Part shown: in pieces, positions 3,056 through 61,611 of the stretch
Layout of the letters: each line of letters starts with the position of its first letter
Numbering within the stretch: the first letter of the stretch is position 1
From: Kofleriaceae bacterium
GTDB taxonomy: Bacteria > Myxococcota_A > Polyangia > Haliangiales > Haliangiaceae
Length of the DNA stretch: 61,611 bases
NCBI GenBank assembly: GCA_018058095.1
Contig: JAGPCO010000033.1
Location: 1-61,611 of the forward strand
Direction: 5' to 3'
Translations under genes and position numbers: made by a program
Notes under the pieces: generated by a model
The model's input: only the letters and a program-made list of their open reading frames with translations
Databases searched by the model: none
Told to the model about the DNA's origin: nothing

Positions 3056-3140
3056 CAGGGTGCTGAGAAACGCCGCGCAGCGGCGTTTCTCGCGCCCTGC
3101 TCCCGTGCCCGTGCCCGTGCCCGTGCCCGTGCCCGTGCCC
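3056..3140 (+). repeat. TAGCAGG hairpin / (CCCGTG)6 element, copy A
   Basis: Directly after the GH31 TAG stop (3053-3055) comes CAGGG (3056-3060), a 12-bp perfect stem GAGAAACGCCGC (3065-3076) and its complement (3080-3091) with a GCA loop, then CCCTG (3095-3099) closing an outer clamp. Six CCCGTG units follow (3102-3137). It looks like a strong terminator hairpin without a T tract; the template strand of the tail has G3 runs separated by CAC. A further 8-bp hairpin GGTGCCGG/CCGGCACC lies at 3153-3178. Confidence 0.85.
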
Positions 3141-3194
3141 GATCGCTCGGGCGGTGCCGGCCGCGACCGCCCGGCACCCTGGCTCGCGCTCGGG

Positions 3195-3395
3195 AAGATT
3201 GCCGAAGGCGCCGGTGAATCCTCACGGGATGAGAAGCAGCGCTTCTATCGGATGGCGCGACGCTCTGCGACCGAGACTGCGGCGATCCTCGACATCCTCG
3301 ACCGCCGCCAGGCCGTCGCCGCCTCCGTCCTGGCGCCCGCGCTCGCGTTGCTCGAGCGGGTCGTCGCCATGCTGGCTCGTCTGGCCGGAGCCTGA
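3195..3395 (+). pseudogene. Four-helix-bundle (S23 / IVS-encoded) protein, 5'-truncated remnant
   Basis: The translated segment GKIAEGAGESSRDEKQRFYR followed by MARRSATETAAILDIL is the central signature of the S23/four-helix-bundle family (IAEG-x-G-x-S then R-F-Y-x-A-R-x-S-A-x-E). The tail LALLERVVAMLARLAGA fits the last helix and ends at TGA 3393-3395. The N-terminal half, roughly 45-50 residues with the RL-x-VY motif, is absent, replaced by hairpin and CCCGTG-repeat DNA. The family is known from intervening sequences in 23S rRNA genes and as stand-alone genes of unclear function. It sits between two facing repeat elements (A and B). I judge it non-functional because no start and no first helix can be found. 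Confidence 0.65.
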
Positions 3396-3407
3396 CCGCC
3401 CAGACTC

Positions 3408-3489
3408 GGGCACGGGCACGGGCACGGGCACGGGCACGGGGCAGGTCACTGCAAACGCGGCTGCGCCGCGTTTGTCTGCGTCCTGCTAG
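3408..3489 (-). repeat. TAGCAGG hairpin / (CCCGTG)n element, copy B
   Basis: On the minus strand: TAGCAGG (TAG at 3488-3486), stem of 10 bp built from 3452-3461 and 3465-3474 with a GCA loop, outer CAGG/CCTG clamp (3482-3485 with 3442-3445), then CCCGTG units; on the plus strand six G3-4 runs spaced by CAC lie at 3408-3441. Here the TAG is not the stop of the upstream protease gene, which already ended with TGA at 3512-3514. This copy faces copy A. Confidence 0.85.
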
Positions 3490-4906: not shown

Positions 4907-4977
4907 GGGTCGGGCACCCTACCCCGCGGGGCCGGGCGCGCCTAGGGGGTGTCCCCAGTTAGCGTTGACATCGACGT

Positions 4978-5046
4978 GGTCGTCGTCGTGGTCGTGGACT
5001 TTGACGGCGACGGCGACGGCGACGTGGAGGTGGTCGCCACCTTTGA
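4978..5046 (+). repeat. Left arm of ~70-bp inverted repeat flanking a decayed S23 gene
   Basis: This stretch (GTC/GTG triplets, GGACTTTGACGG, (CGGCGA)n, then CGTGGAGGTGG and CCACCTTTGAC) reads almost perfectly as the reverse complement of 5299-5368. By hand there are only a handful of mismatches, mostly in the outer triplet repeats. Internal (GGCGAC)n and (GTCGTC)n make each arm a short tandem repeat as well. It lies just upstream of the Deg-type protease start. Confidence 0.85.
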
Positions 5047-5054
5047 CGCAGCTC

Positions 5055-5266
5055 TCAGCTCATCTTCGTGAGCACTACAACGACACCTTCGAGCAGCTTG
5101 GCGCCGCGTTCGTCGCGCTCCTCGGTGGTGAGCTTGCGCAACTTCATGACGTCGAGCGAGGCCGCGCACTCCATGGCTTCGCCACGAGCGATCGACGAGG
5201 TCGTAGACCAAGGCAAGAGATTTCGATAGCTCGCTGATAGACGTCGAGACGCTGGAAGCTGAGCAT
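5055..5266 (-). pseudogene. Second four-helix-bundle (S23) gene, internally deleted and frameshifted
   Basis: On the minus strand ATG at 5266 opens MLSFQRLDVYQRAIE, the expected S23 N terminus. A one-base shift then gives ELSKSLALVYDLVDR (end of helix 1). After that the frame jumps to SIARGEAMECAASLDVMKL and KLTTEERDERGAKLL, ending LTKMS and TGA at 5055-5057, a good match to the last two S23 helices. About 40-50 residues containing the NIAEG loop are gone. Both ends are preserved and the gene sits exactly between the two inverted-repeat arms, so gene and arms look like one decayed unit. Confidence 0.65.
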
Positions 5267-5298
5267 GCCAAGTGCACCGGCCGGGTCGCGGTGGTTGT

Positions 5299-5368
5299 GT
5301 CAAAGGTGGCGTCCACCTCCACGTCGCCGTCGCCGTCGCCGTCAAAGTCCACGACTACGACTACGACT
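5299..5368 (-). repeat. Right arm of ~70-bp inverted repeat
   Basis: Mirror image of 4978-5046: GTCAAAGGTGG, CCACCTCCACG, (TCGCCG)n, GTCAAAGTCC and then (ACGACT)n. Its outer end runs directly into the TAG stop (5367-5369) of the transposase remnant. Confidence 0.85.
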
Positions 5369-5556
5369 ACGTCCCGGCGGCGAGCCATAGGCAAATGCAC
5401 GCCACCTGGACGATCGCCAGGTAGCTCGCGCGCGTCTTGTCAAAGCGCGTAGCGATTCCACGGAAGCGCTTGTGGCTGTGGAAGAAGAGCTCGTCCAGGT
5501 AGCGCGTGCGGTACAGCGCTCGGTCCTTCGGGATAGCGCGCTTGCGTTCTGAATAG
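5367..5556 (-). pseudogene. IS5-family transposase, C-terminal remnant
   Basis: About 60 residues on the minus strand. SERKRAIPKDRALYRTRYLD, ELFFHSHKRFRGIATRFDKT and ASYLAIVQVACICLWLA reproduce the end of IS5/IS427-group DDE transposases (usual form: RN-x-IER-FN-LK-FR-IATRYDK-x-NFLA-V-LA-x-x-WL), including the Glu expected to be the third catalytic acid. Nothing upstream resembles the first two catalytic Asp regions; the frame only runs antisense into the ArsA gene region. Its stop codon is embedded in the right inverted-repeat arm, suggesting that the arm truncated or ended it. Confidence 0.75.
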
Positions 5557-14957: not shown

Positions 14958-16018
14958 CCGACCGGCCCTGGACTCACCTCGGCGCCGCCGTGCGCCGCCG
15001 CGTCGTCACGCTCGTGCTGGTGCTGGCGGCCCTGTTCGGCCTGGCCGCCCCGGCCGCGGCCGAGCGCGTGCTGCCGGTGCGCCGGCACGAGGGCCGCATC
15101 ACCGTGGTGGCCGAGCGTGGCCTCGACAGCACGGCCGACCGCCTGCTCGCCAGCAGCGGCAAGCGGTTGGCCCTGATCGAGGCCGACCTGCCCGGGTTGC
15201 CCCGGCCCGACCACGTCGAGATCCGCGTCGTCGACGACGCCGCCGACATGCAGGCGGTGGCGCCGGACGGGCGGCGGGTGCCGGCGTGGGCGGCCGGGGT
15301 CGCCTTCCCCGACCTCGGGGTGCTCATCGTCGCCCGCACCCGCGGTGGCCAGGTGATCGACGTCGGCGAGACGCTGGCGCACGAGCTGGCCCACCTCGCG
15401 CTCGGCGCCGCGGTCGGCGCGCGCGCCCCGCGCTGGCTGCACGAGGGCTTCGCCTACCAGCACTCGGCCGACTGGTCGTGGGACCGGACCGAGACGCTGG
15501 CGCAGATGGCGTGGGCCGGCAACATCCAGCCGCTCGACGAGCTGGAGCGAACCTTCCCGGCGGCCGAGCTGCCGGCCCAGCGGGCCTACGCCCAGAGCTA
15601 CGACTTCGTCGGCTTCCTGGCCAAGCGCGGCCGCTGGGAGGACCGCGAGGACGACGGCGACCGCTGGCCGTTCCGCCGCTTCCTCGGCCAGCTCGCCGCC
15701 GGGGCCGACCTCGACAGCGCGGCCCGCGCCGCCTTCGGCCGCCCGCTCGAGGCGCTGTACCAGGAGTGGCGCGAGGATCTGCGCCGCCGGTTCTTCCTGC
15801 TGCCGGCCGGGGTGTTCGCGTTCCTGCTGTGGGCGGTGTCGGCCGTGTTGCTGGTCCTGGCCTGGCGCCGCCGCCGCCGGCAGAACCGCGAGCGGCTGGC
15901 GCGGTGGGAGCTGGAGGAGGCCGAGGCCATGGCCCGCCGCGCCGAGCGCGAGCGCGAGCTGGCCCTGCTGGCGCAGCTGCAGACGGTGCCACCGGCGCCG
16001 CCGCGCTGGATGAACTAG
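14954..16018 (+). CDS. Zinc metallopeptidase, MA-type (HEXXH), membrane-anchored
   Basis: 354 residues. ATG at 14954 overlaps the upstream TGA. A signal peptide (LVLVLAALFGLAAPAAAE) is followed by a domain with HELAH at 143-147 and WLHEGFAYQ with Glu164, the two zinc-ligand motifs of the gluzincin peptidase_MA group. A membrane span near 280-302 (FAFLLWAVSAVLLVLAW) and an Arg/Glu-rich tail follow, so the catalytic domain faces outward and the tail inward. The substrate is unknown. TAG at 16016-16018 is also the start of a repeat element. Confidence 0.85.
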   Translation: MTDRPWTHLGAAVRRRVVTLVLVLAALFGLAAPAAAERVLPVRRHEGRITVVAERGLDSTADRLLASSGKRLALIEADLPGLPRPDHVEIRVVDDAADMQAVAPDGRRVPAWAAGVAFPDLGVLIVARTRGGQVIDVGETLAHELAHLALGAAVGARAPRWLHEGFAYQHSADWSWDRTETLAQMAWAGNIQPLDELERTFPAAELPAQRAYAQSYDFVGFLAKRGRWEDREDDGDRWPFRRFLGQLAAGADLDSAARAAFGRPLEALYQEWREDLRRRFFLLPAGVFAFLLWAVSAVLLVLAWRRRRRQNRERLARWELEEAEAMARRAERERELALLAQLQTVPPAPPRWMN

Positions 16019-16102
16019 CAGGACGCTGACAAACGCGGCGCAGCCGCGGTTGCCGCGACCTGGCCCGTGCCCGTGCCCGTGCCCGTGCCCGTGCCCGTGC
16101 CC
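16019..16102 (+). repeat. TAGCAGG hairpin / (CCCGTG)6 element, copy C
   Basis: After the peptidase TAG: CAGG (16019-16022), stem CAAACGCGGC (16030-16039) with GCCGCGGTTG (16043-16052, one mismatch) around a GCA loop, CCTG (16059-16062), then six CCCGTG units (16064-16099). It has the same layout and orientation relative to the gene as copy A. Confidence 0.85.
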
Positions 16103-16123
16103 GAGTTCGGGCGGTCAGGCGCC

Positions 16124-25504: not shown

Positions 25505-25632
25505 GTCCGTGAGGATAACAAGCGGCGTCGGCCGCGGGTCGGCGGCGGGCGCTTATTTCGTCGCGGCCGGTCGGCGCACACGGCGCGCGTGGCGCGGACG
25601 ATGCCGGCGCATCGGGAACCAGCGCCCGGACC

Positions 25633-25732
25633 GGCACCGGCCACGGCCACGGCACCGGCCACGGCACCGGCACCGGCACCGGCACCGGCGGGCATGGGCA
25701 TGGGCACGGGGCAGGTCGACGGCGTCGACCTG
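25633..25732 (-). repeat. TAGCAGG hairpin / degenerate (CCSGTG)n element, copy D
   Basis: After the rpoN TAG (25735-25733) comes a perfect 9-bp hairpin CAGGTCGAC/GTCGACCTG (25712-25720 with 25724-25732, loop GCC), then CCCCGTGCCCATGCCC and a long run of CCGGTG/CCGTGG units back to about 25633. The clamp and stem have merged here, and the tract is more degenerate than in other copies. It separates rpoN from hpf. Confidence 0.8.
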
Positions 25733-27226
<1,494 letters not shown>

Positions 27227-31783: not shown

Positions 31784-33562
31784 GTGTTGCCGACCCCGAC
31801 GCCGGCCCCGATCGATCCGACCCTGCGCCAGATCACGGTGCGCGCCATCGTCACCGGCATGCTCATCGGCGCGCTGCTGTCGCTGTGCAACATCTACAGC
31901 GGCCTCAAGATCGGCTGGTCGAACAACATGTCGGTCACCGCCGCGCTGATCGCGTTCGCGGCGTGGCGCGGCCTGGCCCTGGCCGGGGCGCGCCCGTTCA
32001 CCCTGCTCGAGAACAACCTCAACCAGACCGCGGCCTCGTCGGCGGCGGCCGTCTCGTCGGCCGGCCTGGTCGCCGGCGTGCCGGCCCTGACCATGCTGAC
32101 CGGCTACCAGTTCACCTGGCCGGTGCTGGCGACCTGGGTGCTGTCGGTGTGCCTGGTCGGCATCGCCGTCGGCGTCGGCCTGCGCCGGCAGATGATCGAG
32201 ATCCAGCAGCTGCCGTTCCCGAGCGGCATCGCCTCGGCCGAGACCCTGCGCGAGATCCACGCCGCCGGCTCGGGCGCGGCGGCCCGGGTCTACGTGCTGC
32301 TCGCGGCCGGCGCCGCCGCGGCCGGCCTCAAGCTGGTCGAGAAGCTGGCCGGCCTCAAGGCCTGGCTGTTCCCCGGCACCGTCCACCTCGGCGCCGCCGG
32401 CCCGGTCAGCGCCGGCAACCTGACCTTCGGCGTCGAGCCCAGCCTGCTCATGGTCGGCGTCGGCGGGCTCATCGGCCTGCGCGCCGGCCTGTCCATCCTG
32501 TTCGGCGGCCTGGTCGCGTACCTGGTGCTCGGCCCGCTGGCGCTGGCCGAGGGCTGGGTGCCGCGGCCGACCGACCCCAAGGTCGCCGCCGGCGCCTGGT
32601 TCGGCCCGCTCAACAAGTGGCTGCTGTGGCCGGGCGTGGCGATGATGGTGACCGCGTCGCTGACCTCGTTCGCGTTCTCGTGGCGCTCGATCGCCGCCAC
32701 CTTCCGGCGCCGCGACGCCGGCGCCGACGTGGTCGATCGCGGCGACGTGCCGCTGCGCTGGTTCGTCGCCGGCCTGGTGGTGGCCACGATCTTCTCGGTG
32801 ATCATGCAGCGGACCCTGTTCGGCATCGGCGTGTTCATCGCCTTCCTCGGCGTCCTGCTCAGCTTCGTGCTGGCGATGGTCGGGGCCCGGGTCTCGGGCG
32901 AGACCAACACCACGCCGATCGGCGCCATGGGCAAGGTGACCCAGCTGGTGTTCGGCGCGCTCACGCCAGGCCAGGTCGCGCCCAACCTGATGGCCGCCAA
33001 CGTCACCGGCGGCGCCGCCAGCCAGTGCGCCGACCTCATGCACGACTTCAAGACCGGCTACCTGGTCGGCGCGCTGGCGCGGTACCAGGCCATCGCCCAG
33101 ATCTTCGGCGCGCTGGCCGGGGCCCTGGTCGGCAGCGCCGCCTACCTCATCCTCATCCCCGATCCGGCGACGCAGCTCATCACCACCGAGTGGCCGGCGC
33201 CGGCGGTGGCGACCTGGAAGGCGGTGGCCGAGATCTTCGCCCAGGGCTTCCACGCCCTGCCGGCGTTCACGCCGCTGGCGGCGGCGATCGGCGGCGCGGT
33301 CGGCATCGCCCTGGCCATCGCCGAGAAGCTGGCGCCGGCCGCCATCCGCCGCTTCCTGCCCAGCGCGTCGGCCATCGGCCTGGCCTTCGTGCTGCCGTTC
33401 TACAACTCGCTGCAGATGTGTTTCGGCGCCGTGCTGGCCGCGGTGCTGACCCGCTACGCCCGGTCGTGGAGCGAGCGTTTCCTGGTCGCCGCCGCCGCCG
33501 GCATCATCGCCGGCGAGAGCCTGATGGGCGTCGGCATCTCGATCCAGGCCCTCTTCACCTAG
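31784..33562 (+). CDS. OPT-family oligopeptide transporter
   Basis: 592 residues from GTG at 31784. About 14-16 hydrophobic segments cover the protein. NIYSGLKIGWSNNMS near the first helix and LLENNLNQTAASSAAAVSSA match the OPT family, and QQLPFPSGIASAETL is its conserved loop. Such proteins import short peptides or metal chelates across the inner membrane; in bacteria substrates are mostly unproven. It is divergent from the biotin carboxylase. TAG at 33560-33562 opens a repeat element. Confidence 0.9.
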   Translation: MLPTPTPAPIDPTLRQITVRAIVTGMLIGALLSLCNIYSGLKIGWSNNMSVTAALIAFAAWRGLALAGARPFTLLENNLNQTAASSAAAVSSAGLVAGVPALTMLTGYQFTWPVLATWVLSVCLVGIAVGVGLRRQMIEIQQLPFPSGIASAETLREIHAAGSGAAARVYVLLAAGAAAAGLKLVEKLAGLKAWLFPGTVHLGAAGPVSAGNLTFGVEPSLLMVGVGGLIGLRAGLSILFGGLVAYLVLGPLALAEGWVPRPTDPKVAAGAWFGPLNKWLLWPGVAMMVTASLTSFAFSWRSIAATFRRRDAGADVVDRGDVPLRWFVAGLVVATIFSVIMQRTLFGIGVFIAFLGVLLSFVLAMVGARVSGETNTTPIGAMGKVTQLVFGALTPGQVAPNLMAANVTGGAASQCADLMHDFKTGYLVGALARYQAIAQIFGALAGALVGSAAYLILIPDPATQLITTEWPAPAVATWKAVAEIFAQGFHALPAFTPLAAAIGGAVGIALAIAEKLAPAAIRRFLPSASAIGLAFVLPFYNSLQMCFGAVLAAVLTRYARSWSERFLVAAAAGIIAGESLMGVGISIQALFT

Positions 33563-33655
33563 CAGGTTGCTGAAGAACGCCGAAGGCGTTCGAAGCCAAC
33601 CTGCCCCGTGCCCGTGCCCGTGCCCGTGCCCGTGCCCGTGCTCGTGCCCGTGCCC
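33563..33655 (+). repeat. TAGCAGG hairpin / (CCCGTG)8 element, copy E
   Basis: After the OPT TAG: CAGGTTG (33563-33569) pairs with CAACCTG (33597-33603); inner stem GAACGCC (33575-33581) / GGCGTTC (33585-33591) with loop GAA. Eight hexamers follow (33605-33652), the seventh being CTCGTG. Longest tract in the window. Confidence 0.85.
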
Positions 33656-33826
33656 GGATCCAGCGGACCGAACCGCGCGGAGCTCCGTCGGTGCCGACCG
33701 CGGAAGCGACCGCGACTTCGTCGACGATTGTCGCCACCTCGGGACGACGCTGCGGCGTGCTGCGCGTGGCGCGGCTGCGCCCGCCAGCTGCCACATAGAC
33801 CACCACGGCCGGCGCTGCCCGCGATC
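33656..33826. other. Spacer between facing copies E and F, no recognisable gene
   Basis: 171 bases. I compared all frames with the S23 family signature (RL-x-VY, NIAEG, RFY-x-AR) found between copies A and B and saw no match. Only weak frames without start or stop logic are present. It may be an older, fully decayed insert or simple intergenic DNA. Confidence 0.5.
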
Positions 33827-33905
33827 GGGCACGGGCACGGGCACGGGCACGGGCACGGGCGCAGGGCGCGAGCACCGCCGCTGCGCGGCGTTTCTCGGCG
33901 CCCTG
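33827..33905 (-). repeat. TAGCAGG hairpin / (CCCGTG)n element, copy F
   Basis: On the minus strand after the ggt TAG (33908-33906): CAGGGCGCC (33905-33897) opens a 20-bp imperfect stem closed around loop GCA (33884-33882), ending GCGCCCTG (33869-33862). Then CCCGTG units; plus-strand G3 runs at 33827, 33833, 33839, 33845, 33851 and 33857. It faces copy E. Confidence 0.85.
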
Positions 33906-35807
33906 CTAGGGGCCGACGCTGGTCTGGCCGCCGTTACGCGGCGGCGGCGGGCGCAGCTGCGAGGTCGGCATGCCGCCCTTGCGCGGGTCGGACGCGGCCT
34001 CGCGGGTGCCGCTGGGGCCGACCTTGATGAACTGCACGACCGCCTCGCGATCGCCGCGCTCGGCCACCGTGTGGCCGCGCCGGCGCAACCCGGCCAGCTC
34101 GGCCGAGGTCAGGCCGAGCTCCACCACCAGCTCGTCGGGCATCCACTGGTGGTGCACGCGCGGCCGGGCCACCGCCGCGCCGGCCGACAGGCCGTCGGCG
34201 AACGCCGACAGCACCACCTGCAGCGTCGACGAGATGATGTACGGGCCGCCCGAACCACCGACACAGCCGACCACGCGGTCGCCGTCGAGCAGCAGGGTCG
34301 GGGTCATCGACGACAGCGGCCGCTTGCCCGGACCGACCAGGTTGGCCGCGCTCTGGACCAGGCCGAACTGGTTGGTGGCCCCGGCCACCAGGGCGAAGTC
34401 GTCGATCTGGTTGTTGAGGATCACGCCGCCGGCGGTGATCACCTTGCTGCCGAAGTAGCCGTTGACCGTGCTGGTCAAGGCCACGGCGTTGCCCTCCTGG
34501 TCGATCACGCACAGGTGGGAGGTGCCGCCGTCGTCGAGCCGGGCCGGGCTGGCCACGCCGTAGCGCTGGCTCGGGCTGGTGTGTTCGAGGTCGATGGCGC
34601 GGGCCAGCGCACGCAGCCGGGCCGGGTCGAGCATCTCGACCGCGGCGGTGGCGCCGGCCGCGGTGTCGCCGAGGTAGCGGGCGCGGTCAGCGAAGCCGTG
34701 CTTGAGCGCCTCGGTGATGGCGTGCAGCGTGGCGGCGCGTGTGGCCGGCGCCCCGGCGGGCCCGACCGGGGCACGCGCGGCCAGGTCGTCGAGGATCGTC
34801 AGGGCCTCGAGCAGCACCACCCCGCCCGACGACGGCATCGGCATGGTGGCGATCTGCAGGCCGTGCCAGCGCCCGGTCAGCGGCGCCCGCTCGACCACCT
34901 GGTACTCGGCCAGGTCGCGCCGGGTCATCACCCCGCCCTGGGCCCGCACCGCCCGGATCACCTGGTCGGCGATGGGCCCGCGGTAGAACGCCCGTGCGCC
35001 GCCCCGGGCCAGCCGCCCGAGCGTGCCGGCCAGGTCGGCCCGGACCCACGGCGTCCCCGGCGCGCGGATCACCCCGTCGACGGTGAGCTGGCGCCGCAAG
35101 GGGTCGAGCGCGCGGTCGGTCCCGCCCGAGCCGTTGCCCAGGACACGGTCGGCGGCGCGGGCCAGGAACGGCGACACCGGCGCGCCGCCGGCGGCCAGCG
35201 CGCGCGCCGGTTCGACGAGGTTGGCCCAGCCCAGCACGCCGTGTTTGCTCGCCAGGAGGTGCAGGCCGGCCGGCTCACCCGGCACCCCGACAGCGAGCCC
35301 GCCGCGCCGCGCCCGCTCCGGCGCGACCTGGCCCGCGACCACGAAGTCCGACGGGTCGAGCGCACCCGGCGCGACCTCGCGGAAGTCGTACGCCACCAGG
35401 CGGCGCTCGCGCGCCAGGTACACCACGGCGAAGCCTCCACCGCCCAGCCCCGACGAGGCCGGGTTGGCCACCCCGAGCGCGAGCGCGGTCGCCACCGCGG
35501 CGTCGATGGCGTTGCCGCCGTCGTCGAGCACCCGGGCGCCGATGGCCGACGCCACCTGGTGGTCGGCGGCGACGACGCCGTAGTCGGTGACCAGCTCGCC
35601 CGGGATCGGCGCTGGCGGCGCGACTGGCGTGGGCGCGGGGGCCGGGGTGACCGCATCCGCAGGCGCCGCCGGCCCGCCAGGCCCCGGGCCCTCGTCGGGC
35701 AGCGCGACCTGCAGCTGCGGCGCCGGCGCCGGCGCCGTGCCCGCGCAGGCGGCCAGATAGGTGACCAGCAGGGCGATGGTCGAGCGCGTTGCATTCGCGG
35801 GTGTCAT
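33906..35807 (-). CDS. ggt: Gamma-glutamyltransferase, lipoprotein form
   Basis: 633 residues from ATG at 35807. A signal with lipobox LAAC is followed by a Pro/Ala linker (about 25-70). The GGT fold runs from VAADHQVASAIGARVLDDGG through SSGLGGGGFAVVY to the autocleavage site: DDGGTSHLCVID holds the Thr (near residue 427) expected to become the N-terminal nucleophile of the small subunit. GGSGGPYIISS near residue 515 matches the oxyanion-hole loop. It splits gamma-glutamyl bonds such as in glutathione outside the inner membrane. Its TAG stop begins repeat copy F. Confidence 0.93.
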   Translation of the reverse strand: MTPANATRSTIALLVTYLAACAGTAPAPAPQLQVALPDEGPGPGGPAAPADAVTPAPAPTPVAPPAPIPGELVTDYGVVAADHQVASAIGARVLDDGGNAIDAAVATALALGVANPASSGLGGGGFAVVYLARERRLVAYDFREVAPGALDPSDFVVAGQVAPERARRGGLAVGVPGEPAGLHLLASKHGVLGWANLVEPARALAAGGAPVSPFLARAADRVLGNGSGGTDRALDPLRRQLTVDGVIRAPGTPWVRADLAGTLGRLARGGARAFYRGPIADQVIRAVRAQGGVMTRRDLAEYQVVERAPLTGRWHGLQIATMPMPSSGGVVLLEALTILDDLAARAPVGPAGAPATRAATLHAITEALKHGFADRARYLGDTAAGATAAVEMLDPARLRALARAIDLEHTSPSQRYGVASPARLDDGGTSHLCVIDQEGNAVALTSTVNGYFGSKVITAGGVILNNQIDDFALVAGATNQFGLVQSAANLVGPGKRPLSSMTPTLLLDGDRVVGCVGGSGGPYIISSTLQVVLSAFADGLSAGAAVARPRVHHQWMPDELVVELGLTSAELAGLRRRGHTVAERGDREAVVQFIKVGPSGTREAASDPRKGGMPTSQLRPPPPRNGGQTSVGP

Positions 35808-41276: not shown

Positions 41277-42860
<1,584 letters not shown>

Positions 42861-42924
42861 CCGGGTGCTGAGAAACGCCGCAGGCGTTCTCAGTCACCCT
42901 GCGCCCGTGCCCGTGCCCGTGCCC
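42861..42924 (+). repeat. TAG-CCGG hairpin / (CCCGTG)3 element, copy G
   Basis: After the pckA TAG: CCGGGTG (42861-42867), GAGAAACGCC (42870-42879) pairing with GGCGTTCTC (42883-42891) across loop GCA with one bulged A, CACCCTG (42895-42901), then three CCCGTG units (42904-42921). It is the only copy with TAGCCGG instead of TAGCAGG and has the shortest tract. Confidence 0.8.
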
Positions 42925-42944
42925 CATCTGAGCGGTCCGGCGCG

Positions 42945-42961
42945 GGGGGGTTCGCCCCCTG
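42945..42961 (-). terminator. TAGCAGG hairpin without repeat tail
   Basis: Minus strand after the VIT/VWA TAG (42964-42962): CAGGGGG, loop CGAA, CCCCCC. It keeps the TAGCAGG start of the repeat family but has a minimal stem and no CCCGTG tract. It probably ends the VIT/VWA transcript facing pckA. Confidence 0.6.
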
Positions 42962-45481
42962 CTAGAACCCGGCCTCCAGCCCCAGCGTGAGGCTGCCGCG
43001 GCGGGTGTCGGCGCCGACGGCGGCGTCGAGCCGGAGCGCGGCGCGCAGCCAGCCCGGGCCCAGCCACAGGCCAGCGCCGGTCGCCAGCGCCGGGGTGGCG
43101 CCGAGCTCGAGGCCGGCGCCGAGGCCTGCGCTGACGGCCCGGCCGGCGCGCCAGCCGACGACGAGCAGGCCGCGGCCGACGGTGGCGCCGCCCCGACCCA
43201 GGCCGAGGCGCAGGCCGAGCTCGGCCCCGAGTTCCAGCCGTTGCTGGCCCATCGTCACCCGCACGTCGCCGGCCAGGACCGGCACCGGGTCCGCGCCCAG
43301 CGTCAGGCCCGCGCCGAGGGTGAGGCCGAGGCGAAGCCCGCGGCCGAGCAGCGGGGTGCGCCCGACCGTGGCCGCCCCGGCCAGCACGTGCCGGCCGGAG
43401 GCCTCGGCGCTCGTGGCGTCCGCCTCGTAGCTGTCGGCCATGGGCGGCGCCGCGGCCGGTGCCACGATGCTGGTGTCGCCGTCGCCCGCGTCCCGATCGT
43501 CGGATGCAGCGCCGGTGACGGCGGTGGACCTGCCACCGCCGCTGGCCGCGCCATCGCCGCCGCCGCCGGACCCGGCGCCGCCATCGACGACGTCGCCACC
43601 GGCACCGAACACCGCCTGCCACTGCATACCGACCGGCAGCGCGACCGGGATGGTCTGGGTCCGGGTCGTGCCGCCCTGCACCACCACCTCCTCGCCGATG
43701 GCCACCATCGCCGTGTACGGCGAGACCAGTCCATAACCGAGCGCGAGCCGGGTGGTCTCGGCGACGCGTGCGCCGCGATCGGCGCCGCCCGCCCCGGCCA
43801 CCAGATCGCGCAGCCGCGCGTGGGCCCAGCGCCGGGCCAGGAGGCCGTGTGGGCTGGTCGCGCCGAGCACGCCGCGGCCGGCCCGTGGGCTGGTCCCGGG
43901 ATCGATCGCGATGGGCGCGCCCAGGGCGCCGACCTGGGCGCCCCGACGCAGGCGGTCGACCCGGGCCAGGATGACCACGCCCTGGCCGACGCCGAGGCGG
44001 GGCCGCCGCGCCGGGGCCACGTCGCGCACCGTCAGCTCGCCCCAGTCGAGGGTCGACCCGGTCGGGGTGGTGCGCAGGTCGGTCGCCAGCGCCGACGCGA
44101 CCACGCCGACGTCGTCGAGGCGGTCGACCAGCCGGGTCGTGCCGCTGGTCGCGGCCGCCACGCTGGTCAGGAGCCCGTGCCCGGCGGCGGCGCCGACGGC
44201 GATGGTGTGGACCGGCAGGCCGAGCGCCCGGCTGGCCTCGACGACCGCGTGGTCGTCGCTGACCAGGCCGTCGGTGATGAGCACCACCTGCGGCGATCGC
44301 CCGGCGGCGGCGGCGGCGGTGGTGCCAGCCGACGCGAGCAAGCCGACCAGATCGCGCGGGCCGCGGACGTCGTCGCCGAGCGCCTCGAGCCGCGCCGGGC
44401 CGCCGGCCTCGACCCACAGCGCGCCCTGGCCGACGTCGAGGGCGACCCGCTCGCCCGGGCGCAGCGCCGCCAGCAGGGCGCGGACGACCTGGCGCGAGAT
44501 CAGCCGGGCCTGGCCGGCGGTGGAGCCCGACACGTCGACCGCCAGCACCACCGCCACCGGCTGCGGCCGGGCTCGACCGGCCCCGCCGCTGATGGCCAGC
44601 GCCACCACCCCGCCCTCGCCGTCGCGTTCGCTGAAGGCCAGCGCCGTCGGCGCCACCCAGCGGACCACGACGTCGCGATCACCCCGCACCTGCGCGGTCA
44701 GGCGCACCGCCTGCTCGTCGCGCGCCAGCACACACGTCACCGTCACGCAGCGGGCGCTGCGCGTGCGCGGGTCGAGCGCGATCGACAGCTGGTGTGGCAC
44801 GCCGGCACCGGCCTCGACCGGGGCGGCGACCCGGGACGCATCGGGGCTGCGCGTGGTGTCCGACGCCGCGCCGGCGCCACGGTCGCGCCCGCCGGTCGGG
44901 CGGCCCGCGACGTAGCGCGGCGCCACCACCAGCGGCACCACCAGCTGCCACTCCCCGGCCCCGCCGGCCCCGGTCGATCCGAACTCGGCCTGCGCGTCCC
45001 AGCGCAGCTCGACCTCGATCGTCGCGCCGGGGGTCAGGCCGGTGACCGACTGGGTGAACACGTCGGGTCGCTCCTGCTCGAGCAGCGCGCCGGCCAGGCC
45101 GCGCGCGACCGCGCGCTCGTAGCGGGCGCGGGCCTCGGCCCGGGGCTCGATCCGCGCGGTGATGGTGCGACCACCGACACGCAGCTGCATGGCGGTCACC
45201 GCGGCGTCGGCGGGCAGCGGGAAGATGTACACGGCCTCGGTCGGGCTGGTCCCGCCGTAGACGAAGCGCTGGCGCAGCACGGCCTCGATCAAGGGCCCGC
45301 GCGCCACCACCTCGAGCTGGCTGTCGACCGCGGCGATCGCGGTCGTGGTCGGCTGCCCGGCCCGGGCCAGGTACAGGCCGCCGCGGCCCGGGAGCGGCTG
45401 GCTGGCGCGAGCCCGTCCTGGCCAGGCCCCCAGCGCGAGCATCGCCACCACCATCACCGTGATCGCGACGCGTCCGGGCAT
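42962..45481 (-). CDS. VIT and VWA domain surface protein
   Basis: 839 residues from ATG at 45481. A signal peptide (VMVVAMLALGAWPGRARA) is followed by a VIT domain (about 40-170: VVARGPLIEAVLRQRFVYGG, EAVYIFPLPADAAVTAM) as in inter-alpha-trypsin inhibitor heavy chains. A VWA domain follows (about 295-470) with an intact metal site LAVDVSGSTAG. After a region with TSPYTAMVAI-like sequence (GLVSPYTAMVAIGEE) comes a Ser/Gly/Ala linker and a C-terminal beta-rich part of about 170 residues with repeated Gly/Leu strands, possibly a small barrel. It is probably a periplasmic or outer-membrane adhesin-like protein. It starts 8 bases after the stop of the histidine kinase gene, so the two form an operon. 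Confidence 0.85.
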   Translation of the reverse strand: MPGRVAITVMVVAMLALGAWPGRARASQPLPGRGGLYLARAGQPTTTAIAAVDSQLEVVARGPLIEAVLRQRFVYGGTSPTEAVYIFPLPADAAVTAMQLRVGGRTITARIEPRAEARARYERAVARGLAGALLEQERPDVFTQSVTGLTPGATIEVELRWDAQAEFGSTGAGGAGEWQLVVPLVVAPRYVAGRPTGGRDRGAGAASDTTRSPDASRVAAPVEAGAGVPHQLSIALDPRTRSARCVTVTCVLARDEQAVRLTAQVRGDRDVVVRWVAPTALAFSERDGEGGVVALAISGGAGRARPQPVAVVLAVDVSGSTAGQARLISRQVVRALLAALRPGERVALDVGQGALWVEAGGPARLEALGDDVRGPRDLVGLLASAGTTAAAAAGRSPQVVLITDGLVSDDHAVVEASRALGLPVHTIAVGAAAGHGLLTSVAAATSGTTRLVDRLDDVGVVASALATDLRTTPTGSTLDWGELTVRDVAPARRPRLGVGQGVVILARVDRLRRGAQVGALGAPIAIDPGTSPRAGRGVLGATSPHGLLARRWAHARLRDLVAGAGGADRGARVAETTRLALGYGLVSPYTAMVAIGEEVVVQGGTTRTQTIPVALPVGMQWQAVFGAGGDVVDGGAGSGGGGDGAASGGGRSTAVTGAASDDRDAGDGDTSIVAPAAAPPMADSYEADATSAEASGRHVLAGAATVGRTPLLGRGLRLGLTLGAGLTLGADPVPVLAGDVRVTMGQQRLELGAELGLRLGLGRGGATVGRGLLVVGWRAGRAVSAGLGAGLELGATPALATGAGLWLGPGWLRAALRLDAAVGADTRRGSLTLGLEAGF

Positions 45482-61054: not shown

Positions 61055-61611
61055 TCACACCCCGCCGGCGACCAGGCCCGTGCCTGGATCGACGGTGAGG
61101 TTGGAGTCGGTGTCGTAGCTGCTGCCGCTGTCGTAGCTGCTGCTGCTGTCGTAGCTGCTGCTGCTGTCGTAGCTGCTGCTGCTGTCGTAGCTGCTGCTGC
61201 TGTCGTAGCTGCCGCCGCTGTCGTAGCTGCTGCCGCTGTCGTAGCTGCTGCTGCTGTCGTAGCTGCTGCTGCTGTCGTAGCTGCTGCTGCTGTCGTAGCT
61301 GCTGCCGCTGTCGTAGCTGCTGCCACTGTCGTAGCTGCTGCCACTGTCGTTGCTGCTGCCGCTGTCGTAGCTGCTGCCGCTGTCGTAGCTGCTGCCGCTG
61401 TCGTAGCTGCTGCTGCCGTCGTAGCTGCTGCTGCTGTCGTAGCTGCTGCCGCTGTCGTCGCTGCTGCTGCTGTCGTAGCTGCTGCTGTCGTAGCTGCTGC
61501 TGTCGTAGCTGCTGCTGTCGTAGCTGCTGCCGCTGTCGTAGCTGCTGCCGCCGTCGTAGCTGCTGCCGCTGCCGTAGCTGTCGCTGCCGCCGCCCAGGTC
61601 GTCGAAGTAGC
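61055..61611 (-). CDS. C-terminal part of a Ser/Gly-Tyr-Asp repeat protein
   Basis: An open minus-strand frame from the right window edge to TGA at 61057-61055, 185 codons, no start inside. It begins YFDDLGGGSDSYGSGSSYD, continues with about 28 copies of SSYDSS/SSYDSG (15- or 18-base units such as GTCGTAGCTGCTGCTGCT on the plus strand), and ends YDTDSNLTVDPGTGLVAGGV. All unit lengths are multiples of three, so the frame is selected. Low-complexity acidic, Tyr-rich repeats suggest a flexible surface or linker region; no function can be given. A different minus frame here reads AAATT repeats and is only a shadow. Confidence 0.7.
   Translation of the reverse strand, partial: YFDDLGGGSDSYGSGSSYDGGSSYDSGSSYDSSSYDSSSYDSSSYDSSSSDDSGSSYDSSSSYDGSSSYDSGSSYDSGSSYDSGSSNDSGSSYDSGSSYDSGSSYDSSSSYDSSSSYDSSSSYDSGSSYDSGGSYDSSSSYDSSSSYDSSSSYDSSSSYDSGSSYDTDSNLTVDPGTGLVAGGV

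Follow-up and report, generated by a model that had tools for sequence, protein, structure and literature searches.

What is a broken S23 gene doing between two long inverted arms of short tandem repeats, and does this layout recur? The question is raised by a 61,611-nt stretch of DNA from a Kofleriaceae bacterium (contig JAGPCO010000033.1, assembly GCA_018058095.1, positions 1 to 61,611; hereafter the window), in which an S23 remnant had been proposed, from the letters alone, to belong to a non-autonomous cassette type with repeat arms of variable sequence and constant layout. We read the feature as a decayed mobile S23 module, in which a gene for a four-helix-bundle protein like Avd is framed by inverted tandem-repeat arms on which S23 acts in the manner proposed below; we give this reading a probability of roughly 60%. 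The following features make up the window element.

4942–4972, plus strand: terminal inverted repeat end (CTAGGGGGTGTCCCCAGTTAGCG...), the outer end past the 3'-side arm of S23
4973–5050, plus strand: 3'-side arm of S23, an inverted copy of 5296–5373, with GTCGTC and GACGGC hexamer repeats
5055–5266, minus strand: broken S23 (PF05635-type) gene
5296–5373, plus strand: 5'-side arm of S23, with CGTCGC and ACGACT hexamers
5370–5549, minus strand: C-terminal remnant of an IS5-type DDE transposase, immediately beyond the 5' arm (PF01609, E 0.0018, under Pfam's own cut-off)

The two arms are 78 nt long, 94% complementary and separated by 245 nt. They are slightly larger than the original prediction had them (about 70 bp, 4978–5046 and 5299–5368), and its account of a decayed S23 gene with a readable LTKMS ending, enclosed by arms containing short tandem repeats, proved accurate. 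Tandem hexamers are located at 5003–5024 (GACGGC), 5322–5343 (CGTCGC) and 5351–5371 (ACGACT). The minus-strand translation from 5266 to 5055 starts with MLSFQRLDVYQRAIE and ends with LTKMS; relative to an intact copy elsewhere in the same genome (L001), the gene has an internal deletion of about 125 bp (junction 5193/5194) and a 1-nt insertion. Because the gene is broken, the Pfam family 23S_rRNA_IVP matches it weakly and in one frame (E 0.12). Membership in PF05635, judged by profile and four-helix-bundle fold, is established through L001 (E 1.4e-22), the window copy being too broken. The structure model of L001 (mean predicted local distance difference test score, pLDDT, of 97) superimposes on XCC0516 (2GSC) with a template-modelling (TM) score of 0.93 and on Avd, a component of the reverse-transcriptase complex of diversity-generating retroelements (DGRs), with a TM score of about 0.8.

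The genome from which the window comes (G000; 7.6 Mb, 227 contigs) contains 16 PF05635 profile matches, including a neighbouring remnant at 3195 and not including the broken copy at 5055. Six sister copies of the window element are present (L001, L002, L003, L010, L011 and L019), one of them intact. The arm scores of the first five are 114–144, where the 99th percentile of random positions is 47, and the window copy itself folds with a z-score of -13.6 relative to shuffled sequences; by both measures the inverted-arm layout is not a product of chance. The element is similar to 94 stretches of the genome, mostly solo arm pieces, and such remnant counts are lower bounds. The exact sequence CTAGGGGGTGTCCC occurs at five sites, each of them an end of this family or of its remnants; both such ends are present in L002 and L019, and the window copy keeps one terminal-repeat end only. 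A transposase C-terminus like that of the window recurs beside the same arm type on three contigs (C11, C119 and C223), and the remnant on C11 sits inside an element with CTAG ends. Because CTAG stands at both ends of elements in this genome, a target duplication is indistinguishable there from a terminal repeat. The surroundings of the window copy are those of an IS5-type transposon, a setting that the prediction did not include. Probably an IS5-type element with CTAG ends carried the copy, which later lost the inner part of S23 and one end. At the equivalent site upstream of a protease gene the element is missing in 14 of 14 relatives in the genus, an indirect test of strain-specific presence; the other neighbour differs there.

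Inverted arms recur beside S23 genes in many phyla. S23 genes were collected by searching 84,980 species genomes and also from relatives; the arm test covered 300 bp on each side of the genes from that search, and scores of at least 45 were called strong. Strong inverted arms flank 48 of 73 testable S23 genes, compared with 0 of 640 random positions (highest score 43) and 0 of 151 control open reading frames (ORFs); the 73 genes include sets of copies that share a genome (Baikal, Co_bin.49), and most of the random positions fall in coding DNA. The original prediction had staked itself beforehand on enrichment of inverted repeats beside other S23 genes, and this enrichment was found. Within arms, identity is 0.63 at a lag of 6 nt and 0.24 at other lags. 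The units of the two arms of one locus, mostly in inverted orientation, match at 0.85, and those of different loci at 0.52–0.58. Agreement of units is thus confined to the arms of one locus, and what different loci have in common is a period and not a sequence. The predicted layout of an S23 ORF between arms of varying letters extends well beyond Myxococcota.

The period takes few values. Under a rule that required one tandem period in both 250-bp flanks, with thresholds chosen after a first look at the data, 233 S23 genes divided into 63 with period 6 (p6), 47 with period 7 (p7), 10 with period 8 (p8), 30 with inverted arms of another kind and 83 with none; periods 4, 5, 9, 10 and 11 did not occur. 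The same rule applied to 301 control positions gave 294 with none, six p6 and one p9. On a tree of 189 S23 proteins (about 110 columns, with many forks unsettled), the distribution of p6 (53 proteins) and p7 (47 proteins) takes a single change, compared with a minimum of 25 and a mean of 33 for shuffled labels; with p8 included there are 10 changes (shuffled minimum 32). In view of the few columns and the open forks, the link was rechecked without a tree by means of nearest neighbours of less than 70% identity, among which 51 p6 genes led to p6, 45 p7 genes led to p7, and swaps between p6 and p7 numbered zero. Genes of both periods coexist in three genomes (G024, G023 and G020), so genome composition is not the cause of the period. 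L128 of Sorangium at first seemed an exception, but its inner arms have period 6 and its outer arms period 7, and on inspection it was given the label p6+7. Thus the arm period is fixed (6, 7 or 8) and tied to the S23 clade, a regularity absent from the original prediction.

In the protein, residues R39, S43, N47, E50 and E73 are conserved in the p6 and p7 sets alike. The strongest differences between the sets fall at positions 29, 31, 46, 60 and 75–79, which are no more than candidates for the choice of period, as they also mark the clades.

The arm-S23-arm unit is mobile between genomic contexts. When genomes are compared, homology extends as far as the outer ends of the arms and no further for L001, L069, L095, L096 and L097, and is restricted to the unit in the pairs L134/L130 and L067/L072; other pairs are syntenic. 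In a metagenome-assembled genome from Baikal, at least 40 copies with about 95% identity were scored out of 421 candidates. Their ends (GGGTGCTTAAC) occur in 278 exact copies, compared with 2 for a control sequence, and 9-bp target duplications matching at 8/9 positions or better flank 6 of 11 copies, compared with 0 of 110 permuted pairs. Amplification of some families has thus taken the form of non-autonomous transposons with 9-bp target duplications; the duplications that the prediction had advised looking for are present in this one high-copy family. The description 'non-autonomous' applies, as far as shown, to the window and Baikal families, which have terminal repeats. No autonomous parent of the Baikal elements was found among the first 100 end matches listed. 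Plasmids and phages were tested as carriers: the Kofleriaceae S23 protein was found in 3 of 72,556 plasmid records and in no phage record, and cyanobacterial S23 in 28 plasmids. S23 and its repeat arms constitute a mobile module that is often carried by non-autonomous DDE transposons.

Three cyanobacterial S23 genes stand inside operons of clustered regularly interspaced short palindromic repeats (CRISPR) systems, on plasmids of Picosynechococcus PCC 7003 (L290), Pseudanabaena (L377) and Anabaena (L378). The genes on either side are cas10 and cmr3 (type III-B) or cas6 and cas4; L377 and L378 retain period-7 arms, and L290 is armless.

The ratio of nonsynonymous to synonymous substitution rates (dN/dS) between genomes is 0.05–0.21 in 13 of 14 computable pairs and 0.48 in a nearly identical Thiosymbion pair. 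Between copies within the Kofleriaceae genome it is 1.04–1.15, and within the Baikal burst 1.08. The S23 lineage is under long-term purifying selection, and copies within a genome decay neutrally.

In the systems of repetitive extragenic palindromic (REP) sequences and REPINs associated with RAYT, too, short inverted repeats enclose a single gene for a small protein, and lone repeats are dispersed over the genome. RAYT, however, is a Y1 transposase, whereas S23 is a helical bundle like Avd and is not known to have a catalytic site, and the letters of the S23 arms are not conserved. No Y1/HUH-type fold matched the S23 model (the HUH motif was not searched for in the genomes). With the Avd proteins of DGRs S23 shares its fold, but no reverse transcriptase or template/variable repeats were noticed beside S23 genes in the annotated plasmid neighbourhoods, where no systematic search was made. 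The closest known kinds, each covering part of the picture, are the intervening sequences (IVSs) of 23S rRNA genes and mobile insertion cassettes (MICs). Like the units described here, the IVSs of Coxiella and Leptospira are of similar size and carry an S23-family ORF between inverted repeats; for the Coxiella IVS (428 nt) an origin as a transposition relic has been suggested (PMC4990558). IVSs, however, lie within 23S rRNA, and 0 of 12 loci checked here by Rfam (the window and 11 others) are in rRNA. The Coxiella stem is 28 bp long, and the excerpted account does not mention tandem repeats in it, whereas the arms here have period 6, 7 or 8. With MICs and miniature inverted-repeat transposable elements (MITEs) the Baikal family, and in part the window family, share terminal inverted repeats, target duplication and a passenger gene without a transposase: terminal inverted repeats without an internal transposase gene are found in Baikal and in Kofleriaceae L002 and L019, and are absent from Co_bin.49, and the 9-bp duplication is found in Baikal. 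S23 units of other genomes, in contrast, lack such ends, and the inner arms of S23 units go with the S23 clade. The open-access literature, in a search whose coverage excluded most subscription papers and bioRxiv preprints, yielded papers on IVSs and MICs and no account of such arms around S23.

S23 probably works on its own arms by reading their repeats, as suggested by the fact that the period follows the S23 type. An S23 oligomer would bind in register along the arms, advancing by one repeat unit at each step, so that the protein geometry sets the unit length and the letters are free to drift. The two arms, paired or bridged, would then bring the ends of the element together for copying or insertion by enzymes acting in trans, which may be a resident DDE transposase for elements with terminal repeats and some other enzyme for the rest. 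Selection for the ability to pair, together with slippage, would keep the arms matched.

A different account would make S23 a mere passenger of ordinary non-autonomous transposons (MICs or MITEs) and the arms their subterminal repeats. The terminal repeats of the window and Baikal families, the Baikal target duplications, the transposase remnants that adjoin or lie inside elements in the window's genome, the continued mobility of S23-deleted derivatives and the dN/dS of about 1 within the burst all agree with it, but it would leave unexplained why elements that are unrelated, differ in their ends and come from different phyla should all place S23 between arms of period 6, 7 or 8, why period follows clade, and why S23 is under purifying selection between genomes; we consider it unlikely. 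That a template-copying polymerase, namely a reverse transcriptase with the Avd-like S23 as its partner, lays down the arms, with a unit length equal to that of its template and S23 co-evolving, seems improbable to us. The resemblance of S23 to Avd and the constancy of unit length under drifting letters accord with it, but variation in unit number is expected equally from simple slippage. Least credible is an RNA stem as in 23S rRNA IVSs, by which the transcript folds, RNase III excises the insert and the insertion is harmless. In the Coxiella IVS, RNase III does cut a stem of 28-bp inverted repeats that encloses an S23 ORF (PMC4990558), and the window element folds strongly. Mismatches in the arms nevertheless show no RNA-strand bias (G-U 152, A-C 139), no rRNA or other Rfam family matches the window or the 11 other S23 loci, and excision would bring no gain at intergenic positions. 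We rejected an RNA-stem function on the lack of G-U bias and of rRNA matches.

Several observations weigh against a mobile module on whose arms S23 acts. Arms are undetectable at 83 of the 233 S23 genes, one well-supported S23 clade is almost entirely armless, and p8 does not form a single clade. The S23-deleted Baikal derivatives, which share internal deletions, have target duplications of their own and so moved again; S23 is therefore dispensable in cis in that family, and a requirement for it in cis during the burst was rejected. The ends vary by family (terminal inverted repeats with a 9-bp duplication, CTAG, or, in Co_bin.49, ends that are not inverted repeats), which leaves a single insertion mechanism unsupported. 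The search for empty sites yielded no clean one for units lacking terminal inverted repeats, the Sorangium flanks giving none that was two-sided.

Members of an armless S23 clade form closely spaced inverted gene pairs, several per genome (L257, L265, L270 and L275 in G037; L005/L007 in the Kofleriaceae genome). In the latter genome, S23 copies L004–L009 and L012 are armless and belong to a clade other than that of the window element.

The neighbour of the window element is, as predicted, a separate case. It belongs to a different family, and the window holds an S23-less relative of it.

3056–3489, plus strand: second S23 family, with (G/C)TAGCAGG terminal repeat (CTAGCAGG ends), hairpin, (CCCGTG)n arms (3102–3141 and 3407–3440) and the C-terminal half of S23 (3195–3395)
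33560–33909, plus strand: S23-less relative, with CTAGCAGG ends, (CCCGTG)n and (CGGGCA)n arms and, inside, a transposase-like fragment (similarity judged by eye)

In L016, a relative of this second family, S23 is joined to a DDE transposase, and the translation past the transposase re-enters the same repeat. Remnants without S23 that combine CTAGCAGG-type ends with hexamer repeats also lie at 16013–16120, 25626–25738 and 42859–42965 of the window. In the flanks of L028, L002 and L029, a different short repeat (GGACCGAGCGGAGCC...) and nested palindromes with CTAG ends recur beside S23 remnants, and an 18-bp tandem array (26.6 copies, 94% matches) occupies 61111–61580 at the contig end.

The function and origin of the 23S rRNA IVSs that carry S23 were still called unclear 25 years after their discovery (PMC4990558). 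Tentatively, and at somewhat less than even odds, the link between clade and period suggests that S23 may be the repeat-reading part of widespread, undescribed minimal mobile elements, its geometry fixing the 6-, 7- or 8-nt unit of drifting arms, and that the IVSs would be members inserted in rRNA. The rule relating clade to unit length makes the function of S23 directly testable. If true, this would define a kind of mobile element recognised by the spacing of its repeats and not by their sequence, and would account for some of the short tandem repeats in bacterial intergenic DNA that have so far lacked an explanation.
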